Source: Bacteroidota bacterium (GTDB taxonomy: Bacteria; Bacteroidota; Bacteroidia; Chitinophagales; Chitinophagaceae). From it: a stretch of DNA of 64,000 nucleotides. Made by a program: the position numbers and the translations under genes. The notes under the pieces were generated by a model. The model did not search any database, was not told where the DNA came from, and saw nothing but the letters and a program-made list of their open reading frames with translations. The stretch is from contig JAGWUV010000005.1 of NCBI GenBank assembly GCA_028875875.1, positions 1 to 64,000 of the forward strand, in the 5' to 3' direction. Below, in pieces: positions 23,153-64,000 of this stretch (position 1 is its first letter; each line of letters starts with the position of its first letter).

Positions 23153-23200
23153 GAAATATGTAAAGCGATGCGATCGCGAAAAAATCAAACTGAACTCTGA

Positions 23201-23310
23201 CTTATCTCTTCCCGTTTTACGGGATGGAGTTGGCACCTTCATACAAGCGAGTAGTTCGTATGGGTTGCCAAGGCTTCATCGGGCCAATTCCCTCTGCCTT
23301 TCTTGATAAG
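23201..23310 (-). ncRNA. SAM-I (S-box) riboswitch aptamer
   Basis: On the minus strand the sequence shows the conserved S-box features in order: P1 5' strand CTTATC, AAGAAAGGCAGAGGGA, GGCCCGATGAAGCCTTGGCA, then AAGGTGCCAACTCC, and P1 3' strand GATAAG. This is the core of the SAM-I class. Known members bind S-adenosylmethionine and usually stop transcription of methionine genes when it is plentiful. The downstream genes (transsulfuration enzyme, homoserine dehydrogenase) and the terminator about 50 bases further on fit that mechanism. Confidence 0.95.
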
Positions 23311-23331
23311 TTGTTTTAAAAAGAACTGGTG

Positions 23332-32662: not shown

Positions 32663-32701
32663 AAAGAGAGGCTGTATCAAATTTTGATACAGCCTCTCTT
32701 T
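32663..32701. terminator. Strong bidirectional terminator
   Basis: A perfect 18-bp inverted repeat (32663-32680 with 32684-32701, loop of three bases) starting AAAGAGAGGC and ending GCCTCTCTTT. It lies between the convergent adaptor gene and PAP2 gene and can end both transcripts. Confidence 0.92.
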
Positions 32702-39601: not shown

Positions 39602-40882
39602 ATGCAAAGAGACACACTGGTTTTTGACCTCATTCGAAAAGAGCTGGAAAGGCAGAGAAGGGGGATAGAACTGATTGCTTCTGAAAACTTTACTTCTTTA
39701 CAGGTAATGCAGGCCATGGGCAATGTAATGACCAACAAATACGCTGAAGGTTATCCTGGAAGAAGATATTATGGCGGTTGTGAAATTGTTGACCAAACAG
39801 AACAACTGGCTATCGACCGTTTAAAACAAATTTTTAATATCGAATATGCCAACGTTCAACCACACAGTGGCGCCCAGGCGAATGCGTCGCTGATGCTGGC
39901 TATTTTGCAACCCGGGGATGCGATTCTTGGATTGGACCTGAGCATGGGGGGCCACTTAACACACGGTAGCCCTGTTAACTTTAGTGGTAAATTATATCAA
40001 CCGCATTCTTATGGCGTAACCCGTGAAGAAGGAATTATTGATTATACCATGCTCGAGGCTAAGGCCCGTGAAGTAAAGCCCAAACTCATCATTTGTGGGG
40101 CTAGCGCTTATAGCCGTGATATCGATTATAAACGTATCCGTGCCGTAGCTGATGAAGTAGGAGCTTTTGTATTGGCCGATATTGCGCATCCGGCAGGATT
40201 GATTGCTAAGGGATTATTAAGTTCACCTTTCGATCATTGCCATTTCGTTACGTCGACTACCCATAAAACATTACGAGGTCCCCGTGGCGGTGTAATCATG
40301 ATGGGCAAAGATTTCGAAAACCCATTTGGTTTGAAAGATCCTAAAGGTAATATCCGCATGATGAGCAGCCTGATAGACCTGGCTGTTTTCCCCGGCACAC
40401 AAGGTGGCCCGTTAGAACACGTGATCGCTGCCAAAGCAATTGCTTTCGGCGAGATATTAACAGATGAATTTACCGCCTATGCAAAGCAGGTGCAAAGCAA
40501 TGCACAGGCTATGGCTAAAGCATTTGTGAACAGGGGGTACCAGATCATTAGCGGTGGCACTGATAATCACCTGATGCTGATAGATCTCAGGAATAAAAAC
40601 ATCAGTGGTAAAAAAGCAGAACAAGTATTAGGGATTGCCGATATTACTGCGAATAAGAACATGGTTCCTTATGATGATAAAAGTGCCTTTGTAACATCAG
40701 GTATCCGTTTTGGTGTGGCTGCTGTTACAACAAGGGGAATGAAAGAAGAGCATATGGAATTTGTGGTGAACGCTATTGATACTTCTTTAATGAATGCTGA
40801 TGATGCGAACCTACTGGCTAAAGTGAAGAAGGATGTGAACGATTTTATGAGCCAGTTCGTTTTATATCCTGAAATGGGATAA
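39602..40882 (+). CDS. glyA: Serine hydroxymethyltransferase
   Basis: A 426-residue cytoplasmic PLP enzyme interconverting serine and glycine and charging tetrahydrofolate with one-carbon units. Motifs: [63 protein letters not shown] and the PLP lysine in [13 protein letters not shown]. Length is normal. It is followed by a DUF4293-like gene on the same strand after a 94-base gap that holds a palindromic element. Confidence 0.97.
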
Positions 40883-40891
40883 TATCCAATA

Positions 40892-40969
40892 GTTTAAGGT
40901 TTGAGGTTTATGATTTTGCGGTTGATAGCAGCCATTCTAATTGTAAACCTCAAACTACAAACTGAAAAC
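40892..40969 (+). repeat. Heptamer-phased palindromic element upstream of DUF4293 gene
   Basis: The left arm has consecutive 7-base units GTTTAAG, GTTTGAG and GTTTATG from 40892. The right arm has TGTAAAC, CTCAAAC, TACAAAC and TGAAAAC (40942-40969). The arms are inverted copies in the sense that GTTTNNN units face NNNAAAC units, including a perfect 12-base match (40899-40910 with 40944-40955). It ends seven bases before the ATG at 40977. See the related elements at 43188 and 63700. Confidence 0.75.
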
Positions 40970-40976
40970 TATTTTT

Positions 40977-41402
40977 ATGATACAACGTATACAAACGATC
41001 TGGTTGCTGGTTGCAAGTGCCTTAGGATTTACTTCCTTGCAAACCTCTTTTTATAGTGGTCACCGTGTCAACGATGCTATCCCCAAACCCGTTGTATTCT
41101 TAACGGCCAGCTATAATCCTTTGCTTATTGTAAGTACGGTTACAGCCGCTGTAATAGCACTCATCACTATCTTTCTTTTTAAAGACCGGAAACTTCAGAT
41201 GAAGTTAACAATCGCAGCACTGGTGCTTTCAATAATCACCCTTGGATTGTATTACTGGCAAATGCAAAGCTTTGTTCCTGCTGAAAGCAGCATTACTTTA
41301 ACAGCCGTTGTTCCTGTTGCTATCCCTGTTTTATTGATTCTTGCTTTCAGGGGCATATGGAAAGACGAAAAACTGGTAAAGAGTGTAGATCGTTTACGAT
41401 AA
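40977..41402 (+). CDS. DUF4293-like four-helix membrane protein
   Basis: A 141-residue protein with four predicted helices and a start MIQRIQTIWLLVASALGF that is characteristic of a Bacteroidota-specific family (DUF4293). It has short loops and no catalytic motif. Its function is unknown. It lies downstream of glyA on the same strand, with a heptamer-phased palindrome between the two genes. Confidence 0.8.
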   Translation: MIQRIQTIWLLVASALGFTSLQTSFYSGHRVNDAIPKPVVFLTASYNPLLIVSTVTAAVIALITIFLFKDRKLQMKLTIAALVLSIITLGLYYWQMQSFVPAESSITLTAVVPVAIPVLLILAFRGIWKDEKLVKSVDRLR

Positions 41403-63699: not shown

Positions 63700-63769
63700 G
63701 TTTAACGTTCAAAGTTTAAGGCTTAAGGTTGGGTAACCAACATTAAACTTCAAACCTGAAACTTGAAAC
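63700..63769 (+). repeat. Palindrome of ten 7-base units between rpsS and rplV
   Basis: Ten consecutive 7-mers. The first four are of GTTTNNN type (GTTTAAC, GTTCAAA, GTTTAAG, GCTTAAG), the central pair is GTTGGGT and AACCAAC, and the last four are of NNNAAAC type (ATTAAAC, TTCAAAC, CTGAAAC, TTGAAAC). The two halves are inverted, so a long imperfect hairpin can form. The element begins three bases after the rpsS stop and ends 8 bases before the rplV ATG. Confidence 0.8.
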
Positions 63770-63777
63770 TCAATAAA

Positions 63778-64000
63778 ATGGAAGCAGTAGCAAAACTGAA
63801 AAATTATCCCACAGGTCCCCGCAAAATGCGTTTGCTGGCTGATGTGATCAGAGGTATGGAAGTGGAGAAAGCATTGGCAATTTTAGAATACCATCCTCAG
63901 CACAATGCCACACCTTTGGCTAAATTATTGAAGAGCGCTATCAGCAACTGGGAGCAAAAGAACGGTGGTTCAAATGCAGCAGACAGCAGCCTGGTAGTTA
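63778..64000 (+). CDS. rplV: Ribosomal protein uL22, partial at window end
   Basis: The frame from the ATG at 63778 runs off the window after about 74 codons. It begins [20 protein letters not shown] and includes [18 protein letters not shown] and [15 protein letters not shown], matching the N-terminal part of L22, which lines the exit tunnel. This is the expected gene after rpsS. Confidence 0.95.

Follow-up and report, generated by a model that had tools for sequence, protein, structure and literature searches.

A heptamer-phased palindrome between glyA and a DUF4293 gene, and its apparent kinship with phased inverted arrays in Chitinophagaceae gene gaps

The stretch analysed here, called the window below, comprises the first 64,000 nucleotides of contig JAGWUV010000005.1 of the Bacteroidota bacterium assembly GCA_028875875.1 (family Chitinophagaceae). 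On its forward strand, glyA, which encodes serine hydroxymethyltransferase (39602–40882; Pfam SHMT, 5e-164), is followed by the gene of a DUF4293 protein (40977–41402; Pfam PF14126, 1.3e-28), and most of the 94-base gap between them is taken up by a palindromic element that starts 9 nt after the glyA stop codon and ends 7 nt before the ATG at 40977. Its left array (40892–40919, forward strand) consists of three exact GTTTNNN units, GTTTAAG, GTTTGAG and GTTTATG, plus a degenerate ATTTTGC, and its right array (40942–40969, forward strand) of four exact NNNAAAC units with AAAC at 40945, 40952, 40959 and 40966, all in steps of seven bases. An apical hairpin, GGTTG-ATAG-CAGCC (40920–40933, forward strand), which emerges from the folds and the terminator scan, closes with five pairs including one G.T. 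The arms share a perfect 12-base match, GTTTGAGGTTTA (40899–40910) with TAAACCTCAAAC (40944–40955), and are paired with a shift of one unit, the first left unit facing 40956–40962, which leaves the outermost right unit surplus. Only the GTTT/AAAC core agrees among the units; the spacers, AAG, GAG, ATG and others, differ. The original prediction had described this palindrome, with its 12-base match, its strict seven-base phase, its occupation of most of the gap and its end seven bases before the ATG, and all of this can be read directly in the sequence.

The pattern is also more than shuffled sequence would offer. When the gap was shuffled 20,000 times with its dinucleotides preserved, no shuffle gave at least three phased GTTT together with at least three phased AAAC. 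The element folds as RNA with −31.3 kcal/mol (z = −6.8 against shuffles) and as DNA with −15.2 (z = −4.9), and the three-unit pattern with at most one mismatch has nine matches in the whole window against 1.0 expected, eight of which fall in this element and in a second one at 63700–63769. Chance similarity is refuted by the shuffles and by the recurrence of the phase at orthologous junctions described below, and we give it practically no weight, even though the exact GTTT palindrome occupies a single place, this gap, in the 3.53-Mb genome. The GTTT form is uncommon in this genome, as judged from that one palindrome and from 13 exact three-unit GTTT arrays against 7 for the reversed control; across the family genomes, reversed-pattern counts do not make a clean control, since arrays of TTTGNNN may be heptads themselves. 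A genome scan for GTTT palindromes, the check originally suggested, therefore finds this one site and would miss the main point, which is that seven- and eight-base phases with other cores recur at the same junctions in related genera.

The second element occupies the rpsS–rplV gap of the S10 ribosomal-protein operon. Its left array, GTTTAAC GTTCAAA GTTTAAG GCTTAAG GTTG (63700–63731, forward strand), faces a right array (63742–63769, forward strand) with AAAC at 63745, 63752, 63759 and 63766, upstream of the rplV ATG at 63778, and the element has no T-tract. Among the relatives of this genome, the best named rpsS loci include Sediminibacterium, at 91%, which accords with a place in Chitinophagaceae. 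We read this junction in 110 sources, namely the window, 80 named loci, which were the best 80 of 592 relatives, and 29 further Chitinophagaceae loci, and obtained the gap in 109 of them (all except L269). Seventeen gaps longer than 140 nt were dropped as misparsed, with an rplV-like start elsewhere, 15 below 40 nt lacked the length that the period test needs, and the remaining 77 merged, duplicates being joined, into 70 distinct junctions of 40–140 nt. A segment with at least 14 of 21 matches was present at lag 7 in 24 of these 70 junctions, against 1.3 in shuffles, and at lag 14 in 14 of them, against 0.9; each of the other lags from 4 to 16 (13 periods tested) reached 0–3. The cores differ widely. 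A GTTT-type core is found in the window, in Deminuibacter and in Chitinophaga filiformis, ACTCCAN in Sediminibacterium roseum, a GCT-type core in Paracnuella, and AAACCTG, AAATCAG and TTTTGAC, among others, elsewhere. A seven-base period that returns in unrelated sequences at one orthologous junction bears the stamp of a mechanism, not of one particular sequence.

The length of this gap is itself informative. Within the family its median is about 61 nt (92 usable gaps, duplicates included), and some genera have a bare gap of 19–24 nt. A sample of the phylum yielded rpsS in 141 of its 148 genomes; at 43 junctions outside the family, several read by eye and compared for length only, most gaps were at most 31 nt, the longer ones being those of L301, L309, L311, L319 and L328, the last from the same order. 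From these comparisons, the long gap appears to be derived in this family. Non-coding DNA can be added within one of the most conserved bacterial operons while the operon order is kept.

Differences in unit number were visible within a single genus, taken as Chitinophaga on the ground that several junctions match named Chitinophaga loci letter for letter. Of its 79 genomes, 77 yielded rpsS, and 69 of the 70 junctions fetched could be read. Five genomes of one clade carry a hairpin with one unit per arm, in flanks nearly identical to those of a sister clade of 21 rows with longer arms, mostly of three units; an intermediate form is present in one genome, and the fork joining the two clades has a support of 91/77. 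Unit number differs in both arms together. Conserved operon junctions in many sequenced Chitinophagaceae would serve as a record of seven-base gains and losses.

The phase is not confined to these two junctions. For a wider census we used simple open reading frames (ATG, at least 90 aa) rather than annotations as gene calls, and for the intergenic and strict inverted-repeat scans of the window's own genome, frames of at least 80 aa with three start codons. Among 556 co-directional gaps of 80 S10 loci, 33 had lag 7, 29 had lag 8 and 21 had lag 14, against 0.2–0.5 expected; lag 4 was mildly raised (5 against 0.6) and the remaining lags stood at 0–2. The lag of 8 reflects a second family, phased at eight bases with the core AATT/AATTTGAA, whose palindromes of AATTTGAA / AATTNNNN occupy several junctions of the S10 region (for example L203–L247; 36 gaps counted, 26 listed). 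Across ten sampled genomes, 17 of 347 gaps between co-directional genes had lag 7, as did 4 of 102 between convergent and 2 of 88 between divergent ones. An exclusion from divergent, promoter-bearing gaps was considered and dropped, the difference being non-significant (32/449 against 3/88, p = 0.24). By genome, the lag series are noisy, and four genomes (G003, G047, G060 and G071) have a clear 7–14 series in some gap class. The window's own genome is not rich in arrays, since lag 7 appears in 2 of its 83 co-directional gaps (z = 1.6; z = 5.2 when all intergenic bases are taken together). The phenomenon extends beyond the family, since other Bacteroidia had lag 7 in 4 of 95 co-directional gaps where 0.4 were expected; the eight-base form was not seen in these 95 gaps.

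Phased palindromes in co-directional gaps sit close to both neighbouring genes, starting at a median of 5 nt after the stop codon and ending 16 nt before the ATG (60 elements). Proximity to a start codon, which had been suggested as a feature to record, is thus typical yet loose, and since phased gaps occur between convergent genes too, the design is not tied to start codons. Judged by sequence comparison, the glyA–DUF4293 palindrome appears to belong to a large, loose and fast-changing class of phased inverted arrays in Chitinophagaceae gene gaps.

The gap before the DUF4293 gene shows the same variety. We read 30 loci from the 93 genomes with a DUF4293 gene. Upstream of this gene, G047 has a palindrome of seven-base phase built on TAATTGA, and G024 (contig C80, L135) and G037 (contig C4, L134), whose DUF4293 proteins are the closest ones, have nine-base-phased palindromes of the GTTTAAGAA type; the gap is a bare 14 nt in G072 and short or unrelated in many others.

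Gap expansion of this kind resembles insertion, and the arrays might be mobile palindromes, similar to REP/REPIN or MITE elements and spread by a Y1 transposase. Y1_Tnp genes are present in 74 of 98 family genomes, including all 13 with at least 15 GTTT arrays against 61 of the 85 others (p = 0.03; Spearman 0.24, p = 0.02). REP/REPIN elements are, in the excerpts available from the literature on their Y1 (RAYT) transposases (PMC2817692, PMC3116915), likewise short intergenic palindromes; unlike them, the present element has an internal seven-base phase, no second copy and no Y1 transposase match. A DNA search of its own genome returned the element once, the next matches being two partial ones of 22 bp (E = 0.003), whereas a REP/REPIN would have many near-identical genomic copies. 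PF01797 was not found in this genome (G000, a 97.5% complete draft), though it was in 5 of 14 control genomes, nor was a Y1_Tnp match found in the relatives G024, G037, G072 and G077; G000, G024 and G037 nevertheless carry phased palindromes. We consider a mobile origin improbable. The proposed link to a Y1 transposase, a weak statistical association only with no match in the genome at issue, was rejected.

The organization of the arms themselves points to units rather than to copied blocks. Mismatches between neighbouring units cluster by position within the unit at phase 7 (variance 1.06 against 0.58; 18 of 53 arrays individually significant) and at phase 8 (0.80 against 0.46; 5 of 31), and at phase 5 there is no clustering (0.48 against 0.48). 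From these sequence patterns, the arms look like a conserved core of four to five bases with loose spacers. Permuting the units barely affects how well the arms pair (0.82 against 0.77; p < 0.05 in 1 of 51 elements), and the image of two facing arrays fits such an element better than that of a single inverted duplication. Duplication of a whole arm is disfavoured, as the order of the units is not matched beyond permutation, a property that unit-by-unit growth allows.

A conserved core with a free spacer is also what an array of DNA-binding sites would present, with a putative protein reading four to five bases every seven, for instance in nucleoid structure or to mark the borders of transcription units; near-equal pairing under permutation is likewise expected of two facing one-core arrays. 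Against this stand the unrelated cores GTTT, GCT/AGCT, AATT, GTTATGA and TGGACCA, which differ across genomes and number more than one within a single operon, so that several proteins would be needed. Furthermore, seven bases do not correspond to a helical turn, as the original prediction had noted, and the paucity of arrays in the window's own genome fits poorly with such a role. We regard a binding array as quite unlikely.

The strong RNA fold and the position of the phased palindromes shortly after a stop codon and before an ATG would equally suit an RNA hairpin with a role in the operon. The left arm would sequester the A/C-rich right arm, in the translation start region, until an upstream ribosome melts the stem (translational coupling), or the hairpin might protect or insulate the mRNA. 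Hairpins overall were found in 52 of 99 convergent, 42 of 220 co-directional and 2 of 87 divergent gaps and in 1 of 110 coding pieces (folding covered 220 of the 328 co-directional gaps and 110 of the 1374 coding pieces), and the enrichment of co-directional over divergent gaps agrees with an RNA role. So does the lower variability of paired than of unpaired sites in two Chitinophaga clades (0.046 against 0.120 and 0.040 against 0.081). Under the RNAalifold structure, wobbles outnumber A.C mismatches by 13:2 and 10:1 in these clades, counts that we weigh less because the program favours G.U.

Mismatches counted with a stem detector that treats G.T and A.C alike give a different picture. Unphased co-directional stems have 75 G.T to 35 A.C, an excess that marks RNA selection in ordinary stems, whereas phased stems have 36:33 (Fisher p = 0.04 for the difference); stricter thresholds gave 31:29 and 26:25 for phased against 53:20 and 24:9 for unphased stems. 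Convergent phased stems, with one G.T and six A.C, are too few to read. Across all 69 Chitinophaga junctions, phased or not, G.T to A.C is 11:14 distinct contexts; the mismatch set shares nine sequences with these junctions and contains a few more that are identical to some of them. As the phased stems lack the G.T excess of ordinary ones, the design also occurs in convergent gaps and some genera keep a bare 19–24 nt between rpsS and rplV, we hold an RNA hairpin with an operon job to be unlikely.

If an intrinsic terminator or attenuator separated glyA from the DUF4293 gene, it would explain the ATTTTT tract that follows the long stem. The stem of this element is AT-rich, however, where a terminator would pair a GC-rich stem with its T-tract, and a promoter and terminator scan of the element gave nothing specific. 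In the phased class as a whole the GC content of the stem is 0.31, and coding-strand T-tracts follow the 3′ arm in 12 of 60 phased against 70 of 155 unphased stems; the rpsS–rplV element lies inside an operon with no such tract. With few coding-strand T-tracts and no G.T excess, the phased class is unlike sense-strand terminators or ordinary RNA hairpins, and termination or attenuation at the glyA–DUF4293 gap is in our judgement highly improbable. Opposite-strand T-tracts, in turn, accompany 27 of 60 phased against 42 of 155 unphased stems, and 10 of 18 phased against 24 of 68 unphased stems in convergent gaps, and phased stems may accordingly act as antisense or convergent terminators.

Several published systems share parts of this design. 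Excerpts from Rehm et al. (2015, PMC4692102) describe GGGAATC heptamers in Xanthomonas and GGGGA(C/T)T in Nostoc, with about 185 repeats per Xanthomonas genome, array lengths that differ between the two species, and 70 and 75 cases of two convergent repeat sites in two genomes. As far as these excerpts go, intergenic seven-base units and heptamer-phased inverted repeats are common to Xanthomonas and to our elements, and two convergent arrays lie close together here too. The Xanthomonas repeats, however, have one G-rich unit that could form G-quadruplexes, whereas the class described here has many A/T-rich cores, loose spacers and an additional eight-base family; the glyA–DUF4293 element, with its GTTTNNN and NNNAAAC units, has no GGG and no G-rich unit capable of a G-quadruplex. 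The direct TAACTGA repeats found in Beggiatoaceae, in Cyanobacteria and in five Bacteroidetes, in the parts of MacGregor (2015, PMC4679880) available, are likewise heptamers in gaps just before start codons, also within ribosomal-protein operons, and two Cyanothece strains differ in copy number mostly by 7-nt steps. Their unit is fixed and nearly always direct (169 direct sets and one indirect repeat in BOGUAY), while the present arrays are inverted with varying cores.

Long simple sequence repeats (LSSRs), in which heptanucleotides are the commonest unit in most genomes and for which polymerase slippage has been proposed (Mrazek et al. 2007, as described in PMC4679880), consist of tandem units beyond chance length. 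The glyA–DUF4293 element resembles them in having head-to-tail seven-base units beyond chance, but its units, far from nearly identical, agree in the core only, and a complementary array faces them. No description of phased palindromes in Chitinophagaceae was found among the matches listed in the open-licence literature. Heptamer arrays, inverted pairs included, have been published for other bacteria, and what is new here is the degenerate spacers together with the turnover at one junction.

Weighing this evidence, we lean, tentatively and with less than even confidence, towards arrays that arise and are reshaped where they stand, as DNA, by slippage or fold-back around a hairpin. A small hairpin in a gene gap would pause the polymerase, the nascent end would slip or fold back and re-anneal on a short core, units of about seven bases would be gained or lost in both arms, and the array would be tolerated for its position between a stop codon and the next start. 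The slippage or fold-back step, the direction of change and the dispensability of a dedicated protein are what we infer. An origin at the DNA level is favoured by the strong enrichment of periods 7 and 14 at the rpsS–rplV junction and of 7, 8 and 14 in the S10 region, the lack of a second copy, the expansion of the gap in the family, the unit-number forms in Chitinophaga, the balanced 36:33 mismatches, the fewer coding-strand T-tracts and the unmatched order of units; a step of seven, moreover, fits the slippage preference for heptamers proposed by Mrazek (2007), as reported in the available parts of PMC4679880.

Counted against growth in place are the lower variability of paired sites, the RNAalifold wobbles, the opposite-strand T-tracts and a mismatch difference of only p = 0.04. 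Its weakest point is that the core outlasts the spacer, which slippage with neutral decay does not predict unless renewal is ongoing and which a binding site does, and the DNA-binding array therefore stays a rival. A bolder formulation, which we rate as possible but rather doubtful, is that a DNA process of Bacteroidia, neither simple slippage nor transposition, builds facing arrays in seven- or eight-base steps around gap hairpins, with the core as primer and the spacer free, so that each lineage would rewrite the same junction with its own core, even in a ribosomal-protein operon. The recurrence of a seven-base period at one orthologous junction, for its part, makes it possible to test the long-standing remark that heptamers are the most frequent unit among the long repeats of bacteria.

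Some further features of this genome were recorded on the way. An Rfam search at the gathering score assigned no family to the element, its sole match in the window being a SAM riboswitch (RF00162, 85.8 bits) at 23199–23312 on the reverse strand. In 18 sources from this genome (the window and 17 stretches), the strict scan for inverted repeats gave six palindromes, none phased by eye, and the element itself fell under its threshold. The window also contains a perfect inverted repeat of 19 bp around a 1-base loop, AAAGAGAGGCTGTATCAAA/TTTGATACAGCCTCTCTTT (32663–32701), which is perhaps a bidirectional terminator. The 22-base stretches that are 95% identical to part of the left arm (L008 and L009, at G000:C10:92501 and 93732) adjoin a palindromic repeat with CTGAGCTTGTCGAAGG, present in two copies 1231 bp apart in this genome; L271 carries a palindrome resembling it. 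Finally, a heptad-like array runs in frame within the methionyl-tRNA synthetase gene of the same genome (L011; G000:C32, about 45063), where it encodes the stretch between the anticodon-binding and tRNA_bind domains, which indicates that coding sequence, too, can take up arrays of this kind at a tolerant linker.
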